Assembly (NCBI GenBank): GCA_007695365.1
Contig: REDV01000051.1
Span: forward strand, 1-42,936
Length of the DNA stretch: 42,936 nt
Reading direction: 5' to 3'
Origin: Cryomorphaceae bacterium
GTDB taxonomy: Bacteria > Bacteroidota > Bacteroidia > Flavobacteriales_D > SKUL01
The notes below the pieces were generated by a model. It saw only the letters and a program-made list of their open reading frames with translations. It was not told where the DNA came from and did no database searches. The position numbers and the translations under genes were made by a program. The first letter of the stretch is position 1. The number at the start of each line of letters is the position of its first letter. Below, piece after piece: positions 15,651 through 37,607 of this stretch.

Positions 15651-16451
15651 TTATGGATTGTAATACTTGAGGGCTTCAGGCATAAACGCCTCAATATCTC
15701 TGATGCGACGCTCATCGCTGGGGTGTGTACTGAGAAGTTCAGGGGGCTTTTGGCCACCTCCTAACTGGCTCATACGCGTCCAGAAATTCACAGCTTCACG
15801 AGGGTCGTAGCCGGCCATGGCCATAAACACCATTCCAAGTCTGTCGGCTTCACTTTCATGGTTTCGAGAAAAAGCAAGTGTTCCCAATCCTGAGCCAATT
15901 CCAAAGCTTTGCAGCAGAATGTCACGGGTCAACCCGGGTTTTTCACTGGTCAACACATCCAATGTCATACCGGCGCCATAAACCATCACAGCCTGGCTCA
16001 TTCGCTCATTGCCATGACGGGCCACGGCGTGAGCAATTTCATGCCCCATTACCACTGCAATGCCCGTTTCGCCTTCACAAACAGGCAAAATACCTGTGTA
16101 GAAAACCACGCGACCTCCCGGCATACACCATGCATTTACGGTTGGGTCATCCACGGTGTTGAATGTCCACTCAAAACCCTCCACTCTTTTCTTCTGGTTG
16201 ATTTTCTTCATGTATTGCTCAACCGATGCCGCAATTTTATCACCCACATCTCTCACCATCCTGGCGCGTGAGTCATGCATTCCCAACACATTTGCATCTC
16301 CCAGGAAATCCGAATAAGCCTGGAGGCTCATGGAAATCATGGTGCTTTCCGGGTAGAGATTCATTTGCCGACGGCCGCTGATGGGCACGGTGGTACAGCC
16401 CACAAACAGCGCTACGGTGAGCCATGTGGTAAATCGGTTGTATTTTTTCAT
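15651..16451 (-). CDS. M48-family metallopeptidase lipoprotein
   Basis: From the ATG at 16451 the product is 266 residues. An upstream frame extension to 16565 overlaps clpS and lacks a signal sequence, so it is rejected. The start MKKYNRFTTWLTVALFVGC is a lipoprotein signal with C19 as lipid Cys. The zinc site is GHEIAH (H137, E138, H141) with the third ligand in the ESEAD motif near residue 201. This matches the periplasmic M48C/Oma1-LoiP group, which degrades damaged or misassembled membrane proteins. It is the last gene of the long minus-strand cluster, 19 nt after clpS. The substrates are unknown. Confidence 0.88.
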   Translation of the reverse strand: MKKYNRFTTWLTVALFVGCTTVPISGRRQMNLYPESTMISMSLQAYSDFLGDANVLGMHDSRARMVRDVGDKIAASVEQYMKKINQKKRVEGFEWTFNTVDDPTVNAWCMPGGRVVFYTGILPVCEGETGIAVVMGHEIAHAVARHGNERMSQAVMVYGAGMTLDVLTSEKPGLTRDILLQSFGIGSGLGTLAFSRNHESEADRLGMVFMAMAGYDPREAVNFWTRMSQLGGGQKPPELLSTHPSDERRIRDIEAFMPEALKYYNP

Positions 16452-16470
16452 GCGGATGGGATGGTTGGTT

Positions 16471-16746
16471 TCAGGCAATTTCAGCCGTAAGGCCTCGATC
16501 GAGCAAGGCTGTACACCTAGGCTCAAGCTCATCATAAGTACCTTTTTTAACAGAGCATTTACCATTGTGATGCACTATATAGGTACATTGCTCGGCTTGA
16601 ATGGGATCATGATCGCAAATTTCAATGAGCGAGTCAATGACGTAATCAAAGGTGTGCACATCGTCGTTAAACAGAATGATTTCGTGACTGGCAACCAATT
16701 CCTCTACCAGAACCTCCTGCGCGCGTATATCCGTTTGTTGTGACAT
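16471..16746 (-). CDS. clpS: ClpS, N-end-rule adaptor for ClpAP/ClpCP
   Basis: From the ATG at 16746 the product is 91 residues, the usual length. A start at 16812 would overlap the upstream giant gene and adds a segment unlike ClpS. The conserved FNDDVHTFDYVI (N27, D28, D29) and YIVHHNGKCSVKKG (with H60) form the N-degron pocket. ClpS delivers substrates with bulky hydrophobic N-termini to the Clp ATPase. In Flavobacteriia clpS commonly sits near prmA and tpiA. Here two giant genes separate it from them. It is probably transcribed with the upstream gene, with a gap of 37 nt. Confidence 0.9.
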   Translation of the reverse strand: MSQQTDIRAQEVLVEELVASHEIILFNDDVHTFDYVIDSLIEICDHDPIQAEQCTYIVHHNGKCSVKKGTYDELEPRCTALLDRGLTAEIA

Positions 16747-16783: not shown

Positions 16784-19700
16784 TTACTGTCCTGTAACTT
16801 CTCTCGCTTCATCCACTTTGAGCAGGAAACCCAAAGCCATTGCCCTGATGGTGCTTTCTGTAACGCCTCTTTCCATAAACGTATCTTTCAAGGCCTCGAC
16901 TTCGGCGTAGCTTTTAGTAGGACGGCTCAGGTAGTGCAACTTGCCATTGGGAAGCTGTAATCTTGAAACGCCGGCATCTGGTAGCGCAAGTATGGCATCG
17001 GCAACTTCCTGGGGCATTTCGTTTCCATAGGAACCGAGATCCAGCAAAAAACGAATGTCGCGCGGCTGAAAGTCGTAAGCGCTTTCCAGCTGAAAACCAT
17101 CCACCTGAGCTGGCGGTGTAGCAGATTCGCCAGGTGCAGGTTCGGGTTCAACCGATGTAGGCTCCACGGGCTCGGTTTGGGGCGTTTCAGCAGCTCGCGG
17201 TGTGCCTGCAAGCACATCTTCACCTTCGGCAGCGAGTAAGGCACGGGCTTCTGCCATGGTAATTCTGCGACCATCGTAGTAGGCCGTAATAAAAGCATCG
17301 CTCACTCCGGCATTCATCACCACCTGTCGCTGGCTTTGGGCAAGTTCCACACTCGGAAACATCCCTGAGGTGTAGCGGATATATCCGTTGTTGGTAAGCT
17401 CGCTGTTGAGCGGCATGATGTTGTTCAAAGCGTCGGACGATACAGGTTTGGAGTACACACCCACCTGCACGGTAAAGAACAATCCGCGGATGCGCTCAAC
17501 CTGAGTTGCAGTTGCTGCATCCGGATCGCTGTAGTAATCTGTTCGAAGATCTGTGGCAGGAGCTGTTCGCGGTGCTTCTACAGGCTGCGCCGTTCTCCCT
17601 GACTCAGGAGTTGTTGTGGAAATTGTGCCCGGAGCTTCTGAAGCCTGTGTCGTTTCTGCAGGTGCCGAAGATGACACCGCTGGTGCAGGACTTGTTGTTC
17701 CTGCCACGCGCTGTTTTCCTGTGGCCTGAGCAATCGCATCGGCTGCCTGTGACTCATCGGGAATTCGGTTCAGCGCGATGCGCTCGCCGTTCAAATAGGC
17801 CACCACAAATGCGTCGTTGTATCCGCGATTTCGGATGTAGTCTCGTGCGCTCATGGCTCTGTTAAAGTCAGGAAAAAGTCCGGCAGTGTAGCGCGTAATT
17901 CCCTCGGCAACGCGGTCTGCTCTGATGGGCGAAAAACCGCTGAAGTGATCTTGCGGAATGGGATTTCGGAAAGCGCCCACCTGCACAGCAAATACCAGCC
18001 CCTCGGGCCAGGGGTTGTCAACCGGGATGGGGTTGGCAGTGGAGTACTGGGGCTGGGCGGTGGTTTCGAAACGCTGTGTGCTCACTCCCATCTGCAACTC
18101 GGGTATGGGCGCGTAGGCAGTTCGAGTAACGGGCGATTCCAAACGAGGCTCCGGTATTTCCATAGGACGGACTTGCTGAGGAGTTTCCGGTGCAGACGTT
18201 GTTGTAGCCGGCGAAGTATCGGCAATCGTTTCTGAGGGTTCTTCGTCTGCCTCAACGCTGGTCTGAGTTGCGCGTGGCTGTGGCACTTCTTCCGCCCTGC
18301 TTTCAGGTTCTGCATCCTGAATAACTTGTGCAGAGGGCTCTTGCACATCCGTTTGATCGACGCGGGGCTCTTGTGCAGCGGCTATCATGTCGGCTTCTTC
18401 CTGCACCAGGGATACCAACTCCCGCGATTGCGAAGGCTCCATTTTAGCAAGTACTTCATCTGCTTTGCTTCGCGAATCTTCGACTTCCTTGTTCAAGCGC
18501 GCAAGTTCATCGCGCAGTTGCTGGGCTTGTAAAAACAATGCACGGGCTTCATCTTGTAAACCGGTTGCCTTGCGAGATGCCTCTTCGCGCTCAGATTCAT
18601 TATCTGCTTCATCGGCGCGGGCGGCCCACTCTTCAGACTCCACAAGTTTTCGCTCGGCATCATCCAATGCGGAGGAGGCCTCTACGGCGATGCGTTTTTT
18701 GTTCTGTTCGGCCTGGCGGGCCTGAGCCTGAAGGCTGAACCACTCCATCGCAACCGGGCTGGCTTCTACCCTTTCTATTTGCTCAGGGGTAAGACCGAAA
18801 TCCTGTTGTACCACCGATCGCACCTCAGGCTCAAATGCCAAAATGGGCTCTTGCGCTGCTATTTGAACTGACCCTGTCTCCTCCGAAACTTCGCTTTCGT
18901 CGGCCTCAGCAGTTATGGCAAGCTCTGCCAGCGTTACCGATTGAATACTTTGACGCATGGTTTCGCCTGTAACAGCAATGGGCACTACGCGACTGGCTGA
19001 TTCTTCCCATGCCATTTGACTTCCGGAATCAAGTTCATCCAAAACTGCATTCACACGGGCCAGCTTTTCGATGGCTTGGGCCTCGATGTAGAAAGCTTCT
19101 TTCATGCGCTGCATTCTCGCTGAGAAATTGCTCTCGCTGCGGGCTTCATTCCTTAATTCCGCAGCGCGTGCAAGAAGGGTTGCCGCGTCGTTCTGCTCTT
19201 GTTGCAAGCGCGAAACATCATCTTGCGTAATTCCTGACCAATTACGCGCCTCAAGTTGCTCCATCAAGTTGGAGTTCGACTCGCTGAAGTAGCTCCACTC
19301 CTGCTGATTAACCGAAGCAGCGCGCAATTGCATGGCTTCTTCGTCGCGAAGCAAATTGGTCAAGGCTTTCAGGCTTTCTTCATTCTCAATTTGGGTTCCC
19401 CGGCTTTCCACCAGTTGAATCACGCGATTGTGATGGCGCTGCAAATCTCCCGACATGCTTTCGAGTGCCAAAGAAGCTCCCAACGACTTGTATGACAAAT
19501 CTTCCACATCACCGAAAACAATCAGTTCCTGCAAAGAAGCGAGGTAAGTTTCGGATGAACCCAGCCATTGCTGCACATTGCCCGCGTTGATTTCCGAGGC
19601 ATCGGATACCTCCTCAACCGTCTCAGATTCATCGGCAACAAACTCTTCACCCGGCAATTGATCAGTGCTTTCACGACGTATTGCTTCCTCTGTAATCGGC

Positions 19701-22700
19701 ATTTCTGTTTCGGTTGTACGCTCTTCAGGCAACGCAGCATCTGCTTGCTCAGGATTCACCACAGCTACATCGGCAGGGCTTTCTTCTTTAACCATTGCAG
19801 ACGGTGTTGAGGCCCATTCTTCGTCGCTTTGCCGAAGCTGTTCTGCCGATGCAAAAAGCGATTCGTAGGCAATGGTCCGCTCTTGTTTCTGCAATTGTAA
19901 TTCCTGGATAAGCTCCTGTTTTTGTTGACGCTCTGCACCATCATTTGCAGCATCCATTTCACCAACCAATTCCTCAATACGAGCTTCAATGCGATTCGCC
20001 ACCCGCTGCTCCAATTGTGCTTTGCGAACCGTTTTGATGTACTCACTGTCCGTAGAAGTTGTAATGGCTTGATATTCATTTGCATAATCTGCATCCGCCT
20101 CGTTGATAATGATTTGGTGCTCTGCAACAAACTCTTCGTGACGAAGGGTTTGCAAGTTTTCTCTCTCGGCTTCCAACTCGTTGGCTTTGATAGCCCTTAC
20201 CTGTTCCATCTGGCTTATGGCGCGGTCTATTTTCCTTCGCCCTGATTCATCGGTTGTTGAACGCAAGGCTTCCATTTCGGCAACCTTTTCGTCAATTTTC
20301 GAGATAAACTGCTCGCCCAGTTCAATTACTGCTTCGGTGCGCTCACTTTCAGCAAGACTGGTGGTTTGAATGCGCTGAACGGCTGTTTCATATGCCGGGT
20401 CTATGTCCTCATAGCCGATGGATTCAGGGATAGCAGCGATGGGATCCTCAGGAACGGAAACAGGCTCGGCTGCCGGGGATTCTTCTGTAGTTTCGTTGGA
20501 AAGTGCAGCAGGTTCCGAAGCAGCAATACCGCTGGTTTCAGAAGGGCGGGTTTCGGAAGCTTCAGTTTCCGTGCGCTCGGCCAAACCGGCGATTTCCATC
20601 ATGATTTGGGCGCTGGTGGGTGCAGGCTGCCCAATGGCCGACGCGCGTTCTCTTTCGTAAGCAACCATCTCGTCGGTGAGTTCGCTTCTGATTTCTTTCA
20701 GTGCATCCAAACGTTGCGCCTGCTGCGGAGACATTTCCTCTTCCGGAATGGCGCGCATACTGTTGATTTCGCGCTCTACCTTCACCAGAAACCCGCGGTT
20801 TACATCTGCCATCCGAGCCATTTCCTCCGAAACATCAGAGGAGGTAGCGGCAATGTTCTCGCGTTTCTGATGGAAATCCGGGTCGAGCTCTGCATACACC
20901 GGATGCGCCTGGGCCACGGTTAAGCTGGGTCTGTCTCGTGGATCGGCAGACTGAGAAGACGCTGCCGGCTCAGCCGCGGTGATGCTGAAAGGAACAGCTT
21001 CTTCTCTTCCTATTTCAGCCAAAGATTTGCGGGCATCGTCAATTTCCTGCAGTTGTTTACCCTTGAGCTGCTGGAATTCTTCAATTTGTCTGTCAATCTC
21101 GTCGCGTTGTACACCTGCTTCGAGTGTGGCTCGCTCTTGCTCCAATTCGGCAATGTTTTGGCCAATTACCTCGATCCAGTCCTCGGCAGCCGCAATCTGC
21201 TCGCGTGCTTCCTCCTCCTTCATGGCTCTTACCGGCTCTGCACGCACCTGCGCTCCAAGATCGTAGGACGATACAAAGTCTTCGAACTCTTTGGTGCTTT
21301 CAAAAGCCTTGAGCGCAATGTTGGCATCGTCTTCCAAAATAGTTCGCACCACTTCCATGCTCAGGTCCATGTCGCTTGTCTGTTGCCGCACAGATTGAAT
21401 GCGCCGGGTAACTTCCGCCACCTGGCCGGGTTCAAAGCTGCGCACTTTGTCGGCCGGGATATAGAGATCGGTGGCCTTTTGCTCAATTTTTCGGTAGAGC
21501 TCTGCTTGTTGCGCCAAACTTTCGGCACCTTGCTGTCCATCCTTAAGACTTCCGAAGAGGTTTTCAATCTGCCCTTGTACGTCGTTGAGGTCTTGTTCAA
21601 GAATATCAATTTCGCGTTGTATGGCCGGGCGGTCTTTTACTTTGGCAGACTCCATTTGCAAGCGGCGGTTTTTGATTCGCATCATCAATGATGCTTCATC
21701 ATCGCGCAGTTCCTGGGCCATTCGCCCGGATATATCGGCAGATTTGCGCTCTTTCTGGGCTCTTTCGCGCAAGGCCAGGTATTCATCGGTTCCTTGTTTC
21801 TGTTCCTCATCCCGCGCTGTTTTGACCTCTTTCATGGCCGCTATCACAGCTTCGCGCTCACCGCTTTGCAAGGCATTTTCGAGTGCTTCGGCGCGCAACA
21901 TGGCTCTTTGTTCTTCCTGCTCTACTTCTACCATGCGCTCGTTGAGTTGCCCTGCGAGCGCCAGTGCAACCTCCGACTCATTGGCCAGTTTGTTGGCTGC
22001 ATGACGCGCGGCGGCTGCCTGCATGTAGTACCTGCTGCTCACCTCCTGGTCGCCCACTGCATCGGCGAGTCGCAGGAGATCACCTGCATCCCGTGCGGCT
22101 TTCGCTGCAGCTTCGCGTTTAGCTTCAGCAAGGGTATAAGCCACATCACGCTGGTTGCGAATGTTTTCTGTTTTAGCTTCAAGTTGCCGCTGGGCATCTC
22201 TGCTGATTTCCACTACTGCCTGATTGGATAGGCCTTCGGCAAATCCGGCCGCCTGGTAAAGGTTTTCGATTCCGGTTTCAGGCGTTTTTAAAACAGGTTT
22301 TTCTGCCACTGCCGTCGGGTCGTAGTTTACTTCGAGACCTGCACGGTACTTCAGCACATCGCGGGCAAGCGCAAACATATCTTCCTGCAAAGGACTGTCG
22401 AACAAATTCTTAATTACGAGCTGCTCATTGTTGTTCACAAGGAGTAGCTCAAGTTCTTGTCCGAAAGCAACGGCTGTGGGGTGGGCAGGCACCTCCACCA
22501 AGCCGTTGTGAGCGAGCTCACTACCCTGTGCATCCACGGTAAACCTGTACTTTCCGCTTCGAGGCAGGTCGATCATGTACTGTCCTGTGGTGGCGTCGGT
22601 TGCGAACTGCCCAACCTCACGCTGGGTAAGGGCATCGGTTACGGTTATTCGCGCCGACGGGGTGACACCGGGCACGTCGGGCTTGAAAGTTCCTTTGATG

Positions 22701-23728
22701 AATACAAGCTGTAGCGGATTGGCTGCAACCATCACCTTGTACACGTGCATCCGGCCCTGATCACTGCTTCGGGAGGATGAAAACCAAGCCATTTCGTGGT
22801 TGCGATCGGTGATATAGAGCATGTCATCGTCCGGCGTGTTGACTGCAAAATCGAGATTTTCCGGTTGCGTAAATTTATCTGTGGCCGGGTTGTAGGTACA
22901 CTTAAAAATGTCATAACCTCCCATGCTCGAATGGCCTTCTGACGCGAAGTAAAAAGTCTCACCATCAGGATGCAGAAATGGAAAGTCATCATTGTAAGGC
23001 GTATTGATGCCCGTCATGGGAATGGGCTTGCTCCAGTTTCCGTTGGGAAGTCGGGATGCCCGGTAGATGTCTCGTCCGGTATCACCCTTCTTTCCATAGC
23101 TTGAGAAAAACACCGTAGAGGTATTGCCGGGGAAGTACATCAGGAAGCGCTCGCCTGTTTTGAGGTCGTAGGTGGTGAGCAGCTCCTCCGGGCAAACCAG
23201 AATGCGGCCGCCAATGGCTTCGAGGTCGTAGTTGCGAAAGAAATCTTTTTCGCTGGTTTCAACCTTGTTCAGAACGGTGATATCCTTGATGTTGGAGAGC
23301 AGATTTTGACCATTTTGGCATTGCGCAATGGCGAGGGTTACGTCAATCTTCCCCTTTCTGCGTCTGTCGGTTTTTTGCTCGTAGATTCGATACTGTTCAA
23401 GGGCCTCGGTAAACTGGTATGTCAGGTGGTAGGCCTTTCCGAGGAAAAAGTGAATCTCCGGAGGAATGCCTTCCTTGTCCATGGCAAAACGCAGGTGTTT
23501 AAAAGCCTTGTCCTTGTCTGCCGAACCATATACCAAACAGGCACCGAAACGATAGTTGAGGTCGGGGTTCGTAGGATTGAGACTCAGAAGCTGGGAGTAA
23601 CTCGCCAGGGTTTCACCAAAGCGCTCTTGTTCGAACAATTCGTCTGCTTGTTTGCGAAGTTCTTCCGTAGGTGTTTTCTGAGCAAACAGTCCATTCCCTA
23701 CCAGCAAAAACAGCGCAATGACTATCAT
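16784..23728 (-). CDS. Giant envelope protein: TPR, PD40 repeats, coiled coils, SPOR-like tail
   Basis: From the ATG at 23728 the product is 2314 residues, with a signal peptide (MIVIALFLLVGNGLFAQ). An in-frame start at 23878 would overlap the upstream gene and hide the signal, so it is rejected. Visible regions are TPR-like helices (about 20-130), PD40/WD40-like blades with DIYRAS and GYDIFKCTYN (about 160-340), and a carboxypeptidase-regulatory-like beta domain (about 343-415). Long Glu/Ala/Arg-rich coiled coils follow in blocks (about 500-1770), broken by Ser/Pro/Glu linkers. Two SPOR-like domains sit at about 1907-1985 (FAVQVGAF) and 2078-2155 (FFTVQVGVY), and a degenerate third at 2221-2310. 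The head resembles the order in PorE of the T9SS, but the OmpA-like end is missing. SPOR domains bind peptidoglycan. Its role is unknown. Confidence 0.8.
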   Translation of the reverse strand: MIVIALFLLVGNGLFAQKTPTEELRKQADELFEQERFGETLASYSQLLSLNPTNPDLNYRFGACLVYGSADKDKAFKHLRFAMDKEGIPPEIHFFLGKAYHLTYQFTEALEQYRIYEQKTDRRRKGKIDVTLAIAQCQNGQNLLSNIKDITVLNKVETSEKDFFRNYDLEAIGGRILVCPEELLTTYDLKTGERFLMYFPGNTSTVFFSSYGKKGDTGRDIYRASRLPNGNWSKPIPMTGINTPYNDDFPFLHPDGETFYFASEGHSSMGGYDIFKCTYNPATDKFTQPENLDFAVNTPDDDMLYITDRNHEMAWFSSSRSSDQGRMHVYKVMVAANPLQLVFIKGTFKPDVPGVTPSARITVTDALTQREVGQFATDATTGQYMIDLPRSGKYRFTVDAQGSELAHNGLVEVPAHPTAVAFGQELELLLVNNNEQLVIKNLFDSPLQEDMFALARDVLKYRAGLEVNYDPTAVAEKPVLKTPETGIENLYQAAGFAEGLSNQAVVEISRDAQRQLEAKTENIRNQRDVAYTLAEAKREAAAKAARDAGDLLRLADAVGDQEVSSRYYMQAAAARHAANKLANESEVALALAGQLNERMVEVEQEEQRAMLRAEALENALQSGEREAVIAAMKEVKTARDEEQKQGTDEYLALRERAQKERKSADISGRMAQELRDDEASLMMRIKNRRLQMESAKVKDRPAIQREIDILEQDLNDVQGQIENLFGSLKDGQQGAESLAQQAELYRKIEQKATDLYIPADKVRSFEPGQVAEVTRRIQSVRQQTSDMDLSMEVVRTILEDDANIALKAFESTKEFEDFVSSYDLGAQVRAEPVRAMKEEEAREQIAAAEDWIEVIGQNIAELEQERATLEAGVQRDEIDRQIEEFQQLKGKQLQEIDDARKSLAEIGREEAVPFSITAAEPAASSQSADPRDRPSLTVAQAHPVYAELDPDFHQKRENIAATSSDVSEEMARMADVNRGFLVKVEREINSMRAIPEEEMSPQQAQRLDALKEIRSELTDEMVAYERERASAIGQPAPTSAQIMMEIAGLAERTETEASETRPSETSGIAASEPAALSNETTEESPAAEPVSVPEDPIAAIPESIGYEDIDPAYETAVQRIQTTSLAESERTEAVIELGEQFISKIDEKVAEMEALRSTTDESGRRKIDRAISQMEQVRAIKANELEAERENLQTLRHEEFVAEHQIIINEADADYANEYQAITTSTDSEYIKTVRKAQLEQRVANRIEARIEELVGEMDAANDGAERQQKQELIQELQLQKQERTIAYESLFASAEQLRQSDEEWASTPSAMVKEESPADVAVVNPEQADAALPEERTTETEMPITEEAIRRESTDQLPGEEFVADESETVEEVSDASEINAGNVQQWLGSSETYLASLQELIVFGDVEDLSYKSLGASLALESMSGDLQRHHNRVIQLVESRGTQIENEESLKALTNLLRDEEAMQLRAASVNQQEWSYFSESNSNLMEQLEARNWSGITQDDVSRLQQEQNDAATLLARAAELRNEARSESNFSARMQRMKEAFYIEAQAIEKLARVNAVLDELDSGSQMAWEESASRVVPIAVTGETMRQSIQSVTLAELAITAEADESEVSEETGSVQIAAQEPILAFEPEVRSVVQQDFGLTPEQIERVEASPVAMEWFSLQAQARQAEQNKKRIAVEASSALDDAERKLVESEEWAARADEADNESEREEASRKATGLQDEARALFLQAQQLRDELARLNKEVEDSRSKADEVLAKMEPSQSRELVSLVQEEADMIAAAQEPRVDQTDVQEPSAQVIQDAEPESRAEEVPQPRATQTSVEADEEPSETIADTSPATTTSAPETPQQVRPMEIPEPRLESPVTRTAYAPIPELQMGVSTQRFETTAQPQYSTANPIPVDNPWPEGLVFAVQVGAFRNPIPQDHFSGFSPIRADRVAEGITRYTAGLFPDFNRAMSARDYIRNRGYNDAFVVAYLNGERIALNRIPDESQAADAIAQATGKQRVAGTTSPAPAVSSSAPAETTQASEAPGTISTTTPESGRTAQPVEAPRTAPATDLRTDYYSDPDAATATQVERIRGLFFTVQVGVYSKPVSSDALNNIMPLNSELTNNGYIRYTSGMFPSVELAQSQRQVVMNAGVSDAFITAYYDGRRITMAEARALLAAEGEDVLAGTPRAAETPQTEPVEPTSVEPEPAPGESATPPAQVDGFQLESAYDFQPRDIRFLLDLGSYGNEMPQEVADAILALPDAGVSRLQLPNGKLHYLSRPTKSYAEVEALKDTFMERGVTESTIRAMALGFLLKVDEAREVTGQ

Positions 23729-23798
23729 TCTGCTTAGGTTGGCTGCAGTTTTCCGGCCCAATACCGAACGCCTTTCGCTTTGCCTTCTTTCCGGGTTT

Positions 23799-26700
23799 CT
23801 AGTCAAATCGTCGGATAAAATCGTTGCGGAGTTTCTTGGTTCCCAGCATGTAGGTGTAAGGATCTTTGCCTTTGCCACCTTCAGCTTTGCGTTTATCGTC
23901 CTTCACTTCTACAAGCATATTGTTAAAGTCATTGTCTGAGGAGAACACGCGCATCATGCCACGCTTGTAGGTAAAGAAGTACCAGTTGGCGTCGTCCAGT
24001 TCCAGGTAAATATGCAACTCATCGCCACCGCGTTTCTTCTCTATTTCTATGCGCCCTTTTACCTGGCGGAACACGTCTTTCTTGCCAATGTGGGCAATGC
24101 TGATAGGGCCTTCGCTTTGAAAAGCGCTCTCCAGATCGTTCCACTTCATTTTTACATTGGCGAGGTACAGTGTATGGGTCATTTCCTGGGGTAGTCGCTT
24201 GATTCCACCGCTGAGACTCAATTCAGTGATAATCTTATCAGATTTTTCCAATCCCATTACCTCACGAATGGATTTTTCGTAGTGGGTTTCGGCAATGTTT
24301 ACCGGTTTTAAATCGGGGTAGCTGTTGATTTTCTCCTCCATCTTCTTCAAGGCATCCTCCAGAAAGTGGAAATTGATAATTAGCGTGGCCTCCATGCTGA
24401 AAGATTCGTCCTCCATGCTGTGACGGGCCTCACCCACGGGCTGGAAATGTACCTGACCGAAATCATTACCGAGATTGATGTTTCCATCGCCCACTACTGT
24501 GCACTTATCCACATTAAGGGCCACAAAGTTGCCCGGCAGTTTCCGCTCGCGCAGCTTTTCGCGGGAGCCCACCTGGTACTCACGTGCGTTTTTGTCGAAG
24601 AACAGAAATCCGCGCGCCGAAAGCACTTCCTCGTCGTCCATATCGTCTTTCACCGACAGGAAGGTAGAGTACAATCTGTAGGGCTGCGCGTTGACCATGG
24701 TTCCCACCCCTACCGGTTTTCCGGAGTAATCTACCAGCATGGTATCTACGGGAATCATTACCTCTTCCGGATTGATTTCGGACTCAAAATTCATATAGTT
24801 TCGCTCAATACCGGGGCAATTGTGCGAAATGCGGGTACTTCCTTTAAAGGTAAGGAACTTGTTGTTGGCCTCCATTCTGGTGCGGCCAATAAACTCAAAA
24901 TTGGGGCTGAGCATAAACTGTGCATCCTCCAGCACCTGCCCTTCGGCAATGGTTTGCAGGGAGGTATCCACCTTCACCGAATGAAAGGCAATGACTTGCT
25001 CACGTTTGTTCTCATCCACGTAGGTGTATTCTGCATTACCCTTGTAGTCCCATCGGGATTTGATTTCAATCTTTGCATTGAACATGCGATGGTATTCTGT
25101 AATGTAGTTGGCCACGATACCAGCATTTTCAAGGGGCTCAATATGAGCCTTCTTAAAGATGCGCAGCTCGCCTCTATCGGGAATAATCTTGGCATCTGCT
25201 ACACGGATGTGATCAATTTCCTTACAGTCAATAATGTTTTGCTTCAGGTCGTACACTGCCTTGGGGGCCATAAAGTTGAGTGAATCCTGATCGGGATGGG
25301 TGCTGTAAAAATTTGAGCGGCCGATGTCGAGTTCTGTATCAATCACAAAATCGGCTGCAACGGCTGAGCTCGAAGAGAGTTCAATACTGTTTTCATCCAT
25401 AAACCACTTGAACTTGTCCATGTAGCATACGTACTGGTTAATGGGAAACTCTACAAAGGTATCGTCGCCGTTCGACTCAAATTCTGCCACCCGCTTATCA
25501 AACTGTACATCTGCCTTTACATTTTCGGTTCTGAAGGCCATTTCTGCGTCGTTCATTGCAGCCAGGCGGAAGTCGGCAGTATCTGAGGTAAACGAAATCT
25601 GGTTGAGATCCATTCGCTCTGATTCCAACTCTGCACCAGCAAAATCCATTTGTCCGCTGGCAGTCATTCCGGAGGGAGTAAGTTCGGTATAGCCCCGCAC
25701 CAAATCTGATTGTTCATCAAAGAAGGTAATAGGCTCTTTCATGACGTCCAACCGCAACAGGTTTTTACCAGGGCTGTAAAACAGATCTGCTTCGGTGGCA
25801 TGTGCTTCCGGCACCTGGGGTGGGCCTGCCTGAGCGAGGTTTTTAAAGTGCTTGGTGGTACCGCGGGTAGAATCCGGAAAAAAGATGAAGTTTTCAGAAC
25901 TGGCTGTTGCGGTGAGGTACTCCATCTCACCTTCTCCTTGCAGTCCGCTGTAATTCAGTGTTATATTATCCTTGTATTTTCCTCTCGCACCGTAAAGCGG
26001 CAATCCGGCAGAGCCTGTTTGACGCACAAATCCCAGTGAGTAGTCGGGTTGTACACGCAATTGCTCTTCAATGTCGGGGAAAATATCAGCCGAAACAAGC
26101 GTTCCGTCAAAGAAAACCTGATCGGTATTGAAGTCATTCAGGCTGTCAATCACAAAAGGCTCTACCTGGAAGTAAAAGCGATCGCGGTTATATACTCCCT
26201 TCTGAATCTGTTTGTTATCGTAATAGACAAAGGGCTTTTTGGTGCAGTCGAAAATGGGATATTGCGGATAATCCGGTTGCACTCCACTCTTGTTGTAGGG
26301 GTTATCGATGGAGATCGTACCCTGTATTCCTTCGAGCACGTTTTTAACACGAACCAATCGCGGGCGCCCTCTGCGGGTGGTACTTTCGCGGTCCTCGAAA
26401 CGCTCTACGTAAAAGCGGCATGAATCCACATTAATCAGGTCAATTTTAAAGTCGTCGTAAGTAAACTTGTACTCCTTTCCGAAGAATTCAAACTTTCCGG
26501 CGCGAATCATCCCTGCAAAATCAAAGTCGCGGTTTTTCTTGAGTAGCAATTCACCATTTTGCGGATAAATCACCACGTTTTGGCTGTCGCTCAAAAAGAT
26601 GCGTTCTACACCTCTCAGGAGCATATCGTAGTTGAGAAGGTTGATGGATGCGTTATCCTCGCGTTCTGTCTGGGAGTTGAATACAATCACGTCGTAGTCC

Positions 26701-28262
26701 GTTCTGCCGCCACTGGCCAGGATGTAATTGTACAATCTTTCCTTCACTTTGATGTGTCGCCTTTCAATATCGTAATCAATAAATCCTTTGTTTCCGAGGT
26801 CAATAAGCAGAGGGATGATTTGCTCAGGGGGGAAGCGCATATCTGCGGCCAATCCCTCGATGTAGAACTCATTGGAATTGATAGACTGCGCGTATTTGCG
26901 GATACTAAACAAAGGGTGCATGGCCGACAATCCTGCCAGTGCGTCGTAGCGCTGCATCTGAAAGTAATTGTTTGATTCGAAAGCTGCGCGGTTTTGGGTA
27001 GATCCGGGCAGGTTTCCGAGGCGAATCAAAGGGTCGTCAATTTTCCAGTACAAGGCCTCAAAGTACATATCCACCTCGTGAAAACTATTGAAATACGGGC
27101 TTTTGCTTTGCCCTTCGTCCATGCGAATAAGACTCAGCATGCGCGTGTCTTTGATGAATTTGAAATTGAGCGAAGGGTGTGTAATGGAATCTTGATCGAG
27201 GAAGATGGTTACGGCAACGCGATCAGACACTATACGGTCGGGGCGAATGGTGAAATTGAGTGCGCGACTCTGCAGAAAAGCATATCCATCGCGGTAGATG
27301 GTGAGACTTGCCGGCTGATCGGGCGTACCGTAGCCCTGTAGTTTGCTGCCACGCATGGAAAAACCGCCTTCGTAATCTATATCCTTAGCTATATCGCGAA
27401 TTTTCAGGCGCTTGTTATACGACTCGAAGGCGGGATAACTCGCCGTTTCTTCCTTTACACCTCCCAGCACTTTGTCTGACACAACGCCTTGCAGCGGGTA
27501 ATCGAAAAAGGCATTGAAAAAGAGCACCGAATCCACGGAATAGGAAGATCCCTTGGTTCGTATTTCGTAACTACCCTCAATGATTCCGTAGGTTTCGTTG
27601 GGGTCGAGACCGGCACGCTCCCAGGTGATACGCCCGCCTTTGCCCACAAATTTATCCTGTGTTGGATAATAGACTCCGCTGGTTGCGTAAATCACCGAGC
27701 TGTCGTTTTTGGCGAGGCATCGCAAATCCATGGAGCGAAAAACCACTTTTGGGATGGAGTCAAATTCAAAGGTGTATCGGTCGTTACTGGCCTGCCAGGC
27801 GGTGGTAGTTGAGCGGTAAAAGGTATTGTCTTTGAAGATAGAAGCCGAATTTTCAACAAACTTCACCAGGTTCGATTTGCGGCGGTCTGAAACCAATTCT
27901 TCCATGATGGTGAGCCAGCCGTTAAAGCTTTCATCGCTTTGCCGGCTTTGGGTAAAGGCCACGAGTGAACTGAAGAAATCGCGGAATTCAGGATAGGCTC
28001 TCAATCGTTTTTTGAGCATCTCATCGCTGATTTTGTAGATGCGTTTCCGCGACGCGTCTGTAAACCGCTCGCTGTTCCATGCCGGGCCAAACTCCTCTTC
28101 AACAAAGGCTTTAGCGTCTTTTTTATTGGCCGCAGAGAGCAGGTTGTTCACATCTTGCAAGTAGCCTTCCTGCGTTGGTGTAAAATTGCGCATGGTTTGG
28201 GCGTGCAACTGAAGAATACATCCAGTTAGCAGCAACAACCCGGTCAGTCCCCACTTTTTCAT
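23799..28262 (-). CDS. Giant exported beta-rich protein of unknown function
   Basis: From the ATG at 28262 the product is 1487 residues. This start overlaps the prmA stop as ATGA and opens with MKKWGLTGLLLLTGCILQLHAQ. That can be read as a signal peptide ending in AQ or as a lipoprotein signal with Cys at 15. No catalytic motif was found. After a helical N-terminal part (about 30-150) the sequence is dominated by short alternating strands. Several stretches resemble OstA/LptA-type beta-jellyroll or long beta-helix proteins, for example FDFAGMIRAGKFEFFGKEYKFTY rewritten as strand-turn-strand units. The C-terminus is basic (KKLRNDFIRRFD). Co-translation with prmA and linkage to the 2314-residue protein suggest an envelope role. 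The fold comparison is weak inference. Confidence 0.75.
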   Translation of the reverse strand: MKKWGLTGLLLLTGCILQLHAQTMRNFTPTQEGYLQDVNNLLSAANKKDAKAFVEEEFGPAWNSERFTDASRKRIYKISDEMLKKRLRAYPEFRDFFSSLVAFTQSRQSDESFNGWLTIMEELVSDRRKSNLVKFVENSASIFKDNTFYRSTTTAWQASNDRYTFEFDSIPKVVFRSMDLRCLAKNDSSVIYATSGVYYPTQDKFVGKGGRITWERAGLDPNETYGIIEGSYEIRTKGSSYSVDSVLFFNAFFDYPLQGVVSDKVLGGVKEETASYPAFESYNKRLKIRDIAKDIDYEGGFSMRGSKLQGYGTPDQPASLTIYRDGYAFLQSRALNFTIRPDRIVSDRVAVTIFLDQDSITHPSLNFKFIKDTRMLSLIRMDEGQSKSPYFNSFHEVDMYFEALYWKIDDPLIRLGNLPGSTQNRAAFESNNYFQMQRYDALAGLSAMHPLFSIRKYAQSINSNEFYIEGLAADMRFPPEQIIPLLIDLGNKGFIDYDIERRHIKVKERLYNYILASGGRTDYDVIVFNSQTEREDNASINLLNYDMLLRGVERIFLSDSQNVVIYPQNGELLLKKNRDFDFAGMIRAGKFEFFGKEYKFTYDDFKIDLINVDSCRFYVERFEDRESTTRRGRPRLVRVKNVLEGIQGTISIDNPYNKSGVQPDYPQYPIFDCTKKPFVYYDNKQIQKGVYNRDRFYFQVEPFVIDSLNDFNTDQVFFDGTLVSADIFPDIEEQLRVQPDYSLGFVRQTGSAGLPLYGARGKYKDNITLNYSGLQGEGEMEYLTATASSENFIFFPDSTRGTTKHFKNLAQAGPPQVPEAHATEADLFYSPGKNLLRLDVMKEPITFFDEQSDLVRGYTELTPSGMTASGQMDFAGAELESERMDLNQISFTSDTADFRLAAMNDAEMAFRTENVKADVQFDKRVAEFESNGDDTFVEFPINQYVCYMDKFKWFMDENSIELSSSSAVAADFVIDTELDIGRSNFYSTHPDQDSLNFMAPKAVYDLKQNIIDCKEIDHIRVADAKIIPDRGELRIFKKAHIEPLENAGIVANYITEYHRMFNAKIEIKSRWDYKGNAEYTYVDENKREQVIAFHSVKVDTSLQTIAEGQVLEDAQFMLSPNFEFIGRTRMEANNKFLTFKGSTRISHNCPGIERNYMNFESEINPEEVMIPVDTMLVDYSGKPVGVGTMVNAQPYRLYSTFLSVKDDMDDEEVLSARGFLFFDKNAREYQVGSREKLRERKLPGNFVALNVDKCTVVGDGNINLGNDFGQVHFQPVGEARHSMEDESFSMEATLIINFHFLEDALKKMEEKINSYPDLKPVNIAETHYEKSIREVMGLEKSDKIITELSLSGGIKRLPQEMTHTLYLANVKMKWNDLESAFQSEGPISIAHIGKKDVFRQVKGRIEIEKKRGGDELHIYLELDDANWYFFTYKRGMMRVFSSDNDFNNMLVEVKDDKRKAEGGKGKDPYTYMLGTKKLRNDFIRRFD

Positions 28263-29092
28263 ACTTGCTTTTCGAATTGAAGCATGGCCCATTGGTTTCG
28301 CGAAGCCACGAGTGTTTGCCGCATCCCTGCAGAGGCAGCTTTGCGCACCAAATCAGGCACATCTGCCTCGTAAAACCCACTGATGATGAGTCTTCCACCG
28401 AGCTTCAAGTGCTTCGCATACTGTGCCATATCCTGCATGAGTACGTTTTTGTTGATATTCGCCAAGATAAAATGAAATGAGCGGTCTCCTATGCGGCGTA
28501 CATCGCCTTTTTCAACAGTTATATTCACAGCTCCGTTCAGTTCAACATTTTCAAGTGCGTTTTCGTAGCACCAGTCGTCTATGTCAATGGCCACCACACT
28601 TGCAGCGCCCATTTTTGACGCGAGGATGGCCAGCACACCGGTTCCTGAGCCCATATCGAGCACATCCAAACCGCCAAGCTCCATACCGCGAAGGTTTTTC
28701 AGAATAAGCCATGTGGTTTCGTGATGCCCCGTACCAAACGACATTTTGGGCTGAATAATGAGCTCGAAAGGCAAATGAGCCGGTTCGTGAAATGGAGCTC
28801 TCACCCTGCAATCTTCGGTAACTTCAATGGGCTTGAAGTCAGATTCCCATACTGCATTCCAGTTTTGAGCAGGTATGTTTTCACTGCGGATACTGAAGCT
28901 AAAATCGCTACCGAGTTGTTTGATTAACAATTTCGTTTCCTGATCATTGTATTCTGCTTCCTGAATATATGCTTCAAGTCCGGCTTCGGTTTCAACGAAA
29001 CTCTCAAAACCTGCTTCGGCAAGTTGTGCCATTACCAGTTCGCGGAAGGGCTCAACGGGATTCAGGGTGATATGCAGTGCAAGGTAGTCCAT
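28259..29092 (-). CDS. prmA: Ribosomal protein L11 methyltransferase
   Basis: This 277-residue protein has the full PrmA pattern. The N-terminal substrate domain is followed by SFGTGHHETT (118-127), the S-adenosylmethionine motif LDMGSGTGVLAI (145-156), AIDIDDWCYENA, and the motif IV region ANINKNVL. PrmA methylates lysines and the N-terminus of ribosomal protein L11 in the cytoplasm. It overlaps the tpiA stop by 1 nt and the following giant gene by 4 nt, so it is translationally linked to both. Adjacency to tpiA is common in Bacteroidota. Confidence 0.93.
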   Translation of the reverse strand: MDYLALHITLNPVEPFRELVMAQLAEAGFESFVETEAGLEAYIQEAEYNDQETKLLIKQLGSDFSFSIRSENIPAQNWNAVWESDFKPIEVTEDCRVRAPFHEPAHLPFELIIQPKMSFGTGHHETTWLILKNLRGMELGGLDVLDMGSGTGVLAILASKMGAASVVAIDIDDWCYENALENVELNGAVNITVEKGDVRRIGDRSFHFILANINKNVLMQDMAQYAKHLKLGGRLIISGFYEADVPDLVRKAASAGMRQTLVASRNQWAMLQFEKQV

Positions 29093-37208: not shown

Positions 37209-37607
37209 CTAATCGAAAAAGAAGAAGAAATACAATGCCGCGTGCGAAGGCTTCATGCTGTCGTAGAACCCGATGGTTGAGCGGGAGCTGTTCATCACCC
37301 TTCCGTCTTCGGCAAATCCGATGGTGGAGCGCGAGGAGTTCATCACACGCCCGTCTTCAATAAACCCAATGGTTGAGCGGGAGGAGTTCATCACGCGGCC
37401 GTTTTCAATAAAACCGATGGTTGAGCGCGAGGAATTCATTACGCGGCCATCCTCAATAAAGCCGATGGTTGACCGGGAGCTGTTCATCACCCGTCCGTTT
37501 TCGATAAAGCCTACGGTGGTGCGCGTGGAACCCATCAGGCGCTGTGCTTCAGCAGAAAAAGTAAACATACACAGAAAGGCGGCGAGAAAAAAGAGGCGGT
37601 ATTTCAT
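37209..37607 (-). CDS. Secreted 16-residue-repeat protein (beta-flower-like)
   Basis: From the ATG at 37607 the product is 132 residues. A cleavable signal peptide (MKYRLFFLAAFLCMFTFSAEAQ) is followed by six units of 16 residues (23-118) of the type RVMNSSRSTIGFIEDG. A short end, SHAALYFFFFFD, follows. The Gly-Phe-Ile / Asp-Gly-Arg-Val-Met-Asn pattern resembles proteins annotated as 5-fold beta-flower in Bacteroidota, where each unit adds a strand pair to a closed ring. Six units rather than five are present, so the ring count is uncertain. The hydrophobic end is odd for a secreted protein. No enzyme motif is visible and the function is unknown. Confidence 0.75.
   Translation of the reverse strand: MKYRLFFLAAFLCMFTFSAEAQRLMGSTRTTVGFIENGRVMNSSRSTIGFIEDGRVMNSSRSTIGFIENGRVMNSSRSTIGFIEDGRVMNSSRSTIGFAEDGRVMNSSRSTIGFYDSMKPSHAALYFFFFFD
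37254..37541. repeat. Six 48-bp tandem repeats in the beta-flower-like gene
   Basis: Six in-frame 48-bp units lie head to tail. The first four alternate between units ending Glu-Asn-Gly and Glu-Asp-Gly. That suggests growth by duplication of a 96-bp pair. The outermost units are the most divergent. Confidence 0.85.

Follow-up and report, generated by a model that had tools for sequence, protein, structure and literature searches.

The locus described here raises the question of what is done in the cell envelope by a very large protein that begins like PorE, a component of the type IX secretion system (T9SS), and ends in a different way. The window, meaning the whole stretch of DNA that was analysed, was 42,936 nucleotides of contig REDV01000051.1 from a Cryomorphaceae bacterium, and the features discussed are located in Table 1.

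Architecture and distribution of the giant protein

The gene product, referred to here as the giant, reads as a huge exported protein of ~2314 aa. An in-frame TTG at 23761 offers an alternative start that gives the signal peptide a more basic n-region (MGRKTAANLSRMIVIALFLLVGNGLFA|Q) and may be the true one; no lipobox Cys was seen near the signal-peptide end when the sequence was read. The TPR comes first, then the PD40 beta-propeller and a carboxypeptidase-regulatory-like domain (CRD); ~1300 helical residues follow, and three SPOR units close the protein. The open frame and domain order, first described in a sequence-only reading of this DNA, were upheld and the whole architecture was seen again in relatives, and is therefore far beyond chance.

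Table 1. Locations of the features of the giant gene and its neighbours in the window
Feature	Positions	Strand	Basis
Giant gene, 2314 aa from ATG 23728	16784-23728	(-)	one open frame
Signal peptide MIVIALFLLVGNGLFA|Q	23681-23728	(-)	sequence reading; reaches 23761 with the TTG start
TPR domain, residues 17-143	23300-23680	(-)	AlphaFold2 model; Foldseek/VIA, TPR structures at Z about 13
PD40 beta-propeller region, residues about 151-333	22730-23278	(-)	Pfam PD40 2.9e-6; NCBIfam PorE/CHU_0125; mostly beta in model
CRD, residues about 342-442	22403-22705	(-)	Pfam CarboxypepD_reg 0.004; model strands; PorE profile alignment
Helical spacer, residues about 487-1790	18359-22270	(-)	AlphaFold2 of residues 441-1640; beyond 1640 composition only
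Helical-hairpin repeat 1 (837-896)	21041-21220	(-)	E 2.6e-4
Helical-hairpin repeat 2 (947-1021)	20666-20890	(-)	E 1.5e-15
Helical-hairpin repeat 3 (1108-1185)	20174-20407	(-)	E 6.8e-21
Helical-hairpin repeat 4 (1209-1287)	19868-20104	(-)	E 1.7e-13
SPOR unit 1 (1908-1985), glycan-binding Gln and Arg	17774-18007	(-)	profile searches; ligand-residue comparison
SPOR unit 2 (2081-2157), glycan-binding Gln and Arg	17258-17488	(-)	profile searches; ligand-residue comparison
SPOR unit 3 (2222-2300), degenerate, Gln to Asp, Arg to His	16829-17065	(-)	profile of distant third units
Upstream neighbour, exported 1497-aa protein, gene order with giant conserved	23799-28292	(-)	signal peptide; profile searches
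Downstream neighbour, M48 metalloprotease	15651-16565	(-)	Pfam; near giant in 16/40 relative loci

Of the 295 Bacteroidia genomes sampled, 140 had a match to the head of the giant. The named loci were mostly from Flavobacteriales (Crocinitomicaceae, Cryomorphaceae, Salibacter, Fluviicola and Brumimicrobium), and SPOR was present in 58 of the 62 complete open frames at these loci; it was missing or weak in several members, being undetectable in L207 (1676 aa) and weak in L202. In a separate set, 49 of 60 relatives matched the giant at 1e-30, mostly with open frames of 1700-2940 aa; this threshold also lets in some shorter PD40 relatives. These comparisons indicate that the giant is a real family. 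Approximately half of the sampled Bacteroidia genomes would thus encode such an exported protein, mostly of ~2000 residues, of which no description was found in the literature searched: searches on SPOR with gliding and on SPOR with FtsN in Bacteroidetes yielded no paper, and these together with searches on PD40/TPR yielded nothing on this protein.

An AlphaFold2 model of the head, made with 40 relatives, had a pLDDT of 90.4 and contained the TPR helices followed by strands. The fold search returned mainly TPR proteins. Foldseek placed propeller proteins high in the ranking, though at low TM-scores, and the results included no solved PorE head; the TPR was therefore matched by fold and the propeller to PorE by sequence. 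PD40 passed its Pfam cut-off, whereas TPR and CRD scored under theirs; the NCBIfam models CHU_0125_OmpA and PorE matched 40/40 heads, far below their cut-offs. The head is a scaffold fold related to secretion-system scaffolds and belongs to the broad TPR-PD40-CRD superfamily. Flavobacterium johnsoniae has more than twenty PorE homologues (PMC7192894), hence such heads are common. Some families also encode second copies of ~976 aa (L204:7242-10172 and L205:8729-11656), in which the TPR-PD40-CRD head is apparently duplicated in tandem, with neither the long spacer nor SPOR.

The region between the head and the tail had been described as a coiled-coil stalk of ~1300 residues. A long helical spacer is indeed predicted, but not one continuous coiled coil. 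AlphaFold2 gave an all-helical model of residues 441-1640 (pLDDT 74.5, pTM 0.42), in which no helix is longer than 63 residues, or about 9.5 nm, and disordered linkers interrupt the helices near 911-940, 1060-1092, 1307-1380 and 1585-1640. A helical-hairpin repeat of ~80 residues was present in four copies in this giant and in eight copies each in L046 and L049, and was absent from shuffled spacers. The short helices, linkers and repeats therefore suggest a jointed chain of helical bundles with disordered linkers between them, and a single giant coiled coil or one long rigid tether was rejected from the helix lengths and the several long linkers in this model. The sequence of residues about 480-1880 was poorly conserved, with a mean column identity of 18%, and was free to change while both ends were conserved, as expected for a spacer. 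A fold search with the spacer returned nothing significant.

The three SPOR-like units proposed for the C-terminus were confirmed by profile searches. Pfam SPOR (PF05036) matched 27/40 family units (best 1.1e-6), the giant's own unit 1 alone falling below the cut-off at 17.4 of 21 bits; a profile built from the units found the CwlC SPOR structure 1x60 at 6.5e-4; and a profile built on the third units of distant relatives recovered unit 3 at 9e-7 in a database of 41 sequences. Units 1 and 2 were strongly conserved. In RlpA, Q270 and R309 are glycan-ligand residues, with Q270 contacting the glycan (PMC6895207); by our motif reading of the equivalent positions, with the roles taken from that study, the former was Gln in 32/32 sequences in both units, and the latter was Arg in 30/32 in unit 1 and Arg or Lys in 32/32 in unit 2. 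The tail is therefore predicted to bind denuded glycan. Both ligand residues were lost from unit 3 of this giant; most distant relatives still have the Gln, thus unit 3 has probably decayed in this lineage. Extra C-terminal SPOR-like units were observed in two giants of ~2940 aa (L046:14943-16769 and L053:3210-5219). Elsewhere in the same genome (contig 66, L007:1489-2649, minus strand), a small relative of 387 aa is exported and helical; its single SPOR-like unit is 39% identical to unit 1 of the giant. Pfam gave no match for it at 0.001.

A proposed role at the cell wall, and the neighbouring genes

The export signal, the scaffold-type head, the identity of the SPOR units, the kept ligand residues and the recurrence of head, spacer and SPOR across the class are the grounds on which we propose that the giant is a soluble scaffold of the periplasm, with a head that docks a partner in the envelope and a tail that binds peptidoglycan in its denuded form, mainly at the septum; we give this reading a probability of about 0.5. 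The giant would be exported by Sec to the periplasm, where the TPR-propeller-CRD head would dock a protein partner at the envelope and the flexible chain of helical bundles would act as the spacer. Two functional SPOR domains, with the degenerate third here, would bind glycan strands from which amidases, acting mainly at the division septum, would have removed the stem peptides. The partner of the head would in this way be reversibly attached, and enriched where the wall is remodelled or the cell constricts. The SPOR ends would tie the giant directly, and in a testable way, to wall remodelling or to division in this phylum.

A tether between an envelope complex and peptidoglycan had been suggested for this protein. 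A head in PorE order, a long spacer and a SPOR tail make it likely that the giant connects an envelope partner with peptidoglycan; the single long stalk, judging by the model, was not retained. Weighing against the scaffold reading are the several members with no detectable SPOR and the length of the spacer, which as one fully stretched helix would measure ~195 nm by arithmetic. This is far more than the few tens of nm of a periplasm, into which the chain can fit only by folding back or by running along the wall.

A general stabiliser of the outer membrane, comparable to Pal, in which the head would hold a protein of the outer membrane and the SPOR tail the wall, all round the cell, is unlikely. 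All 40 heads match CHU_0125, deletion of which harms outer-membrane integrity, and the adjacent M48 protease resembles envelope quality-control proteases; however, SPOR domains recognise denuded glycan and not the bulk stem peptide, and the giant has neither a lipid anchor nor a barrel that would hold it in the outer membrane.

The 1497-aa neighbour upstream, for which no Pfam, NCBIfam or solved-structure relative was found, is a candidate partner of the giant. The order tpiA-prmA-1497-aa protein-giant was common to many relatives, often with a gene for a PlsY-like acyltransferase (named from sequence) just before the giant, and the two large genes, with or without plsY, were together in 30/40 relative loci and in several other families. 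The neighbour was found in 136 of the 140 genomes with the giant (p 7e-11, a value inflated by shared ancestry). That the giant is wholly dedicated to this protein, in one envelope complex where wall binding serves placement only, seems distinctly unlikely, since the neighbour is far more widespread (244/295 genomes) and so works without the giant, and some genomes keep both genes on separate stretches. A tandem array lies further from these genes, at positions 37267-37537 of the window, and has periods of 48 bp and 96 bp.

The scaffold reading could be extended to a constriction part specific to Bacteroidota, which with the ~1500-aa neighbour would link the outer membrane with denuded peptidoglycan at the septum, as is done in other phyla by Tol-Pal and FtsN-type proteins. 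We regard this extension as improbable.

Relationship to PorE and the T9SS

The TPR-PD40-CRD order of PorE was recovered in the giant by Pfam, the PorE profile and the AlphaFold2 model. The PorE profile (NF052230) matched the head at 3.2e-22, and matched all 40 members; the scores were 71.9 bits for the whole protein and 78.6 bits for the head against a curated cut-off of 600 bits, below which the order's own PorE-like proteins also fall (up to 534 bits). No Pfam match to OmpA or OmpA_C was found in the giant, in agreement with the claim that a SPOR tail stands where PorE has OmpA. The same genome encodes a separate full-length TPR-PD40-CRD-OmpA protein (G000:C87), which scores 529 bits with the PorE model, and some nine other TPR-PD40 relatives. 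When a tree was built from the PD40-CRD stretch that the proteins share, the giant heads fell in one clade (98/93) that excluded the full-length PorE-like proteins. Ahead of the CRD, the beta region spans ~190 residues, ~80 fewer than the propeller of PorE, which spans 269 residues (PMC7192894). The description of the head as PorE-like thus holds for the domain order, but the giant is not a modified PorE, and a PorE with a swapped end was rejected from the tree, the separate PorE-like protein and the distribution.

SprA was detected in 282/295 Bacteroidia genomes, including 136/140 with the giant, and 146 of the 282 SprA-positive genomes were without the giant (Fisher p 0.26); among the 60 relatives, SprA was present in 10/11 that had no giant match. 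The presence of the giant does not follow the T9SS, and the suggested link to this system, with roles in gliding or secretion, is unsupported. A T9SS or gliding component, acting as a long PorE-type tether from the secretion system to peptidoglycan, would fit the head profile and the near-ubiquity of SprA but is very unlikely given the separate PorE-like protein, the distinct clade, the genomes with SprA alone and an absence of T9SS genes among the identified immediate neighbours.

Comparison with known systems

FtsN, DedD, DamX, RlpA and CwlC resemble the giant in having C-terminal SPOR units with conserved Gln and Arg/Lys; they are short, and are membrane-anchored or enzymes. To our knowledge, no SPOR-domain protein has a head of the TPR-PD40-CRD type or places its SPOR units in tandem on a spacer of this kind. 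The best NCBIfam match of the head was the CHU_0125 family OmpA-like outer-membrane integrity protein (NF053607, 2.1e-28), with which it shares TPR and PD40; CHU_0125 is 656 aa long with an OmpA_C end, and the head scored 99 bits, where the cut-off is 620. PorE (PG1058) has the same three head domains in the same order and a peptidoglycan-binding C-terminus, but is a ~670-aa lipoprotein with an OmpA_C end (PMC7192894), whereas the giant has no lipobox, a shorter propeller region, the ~1300-residue helical spacer, SPOR units and a clade of its own. The giant also serves as a warning that a PorE-like head need not mean a part of the T9SS.
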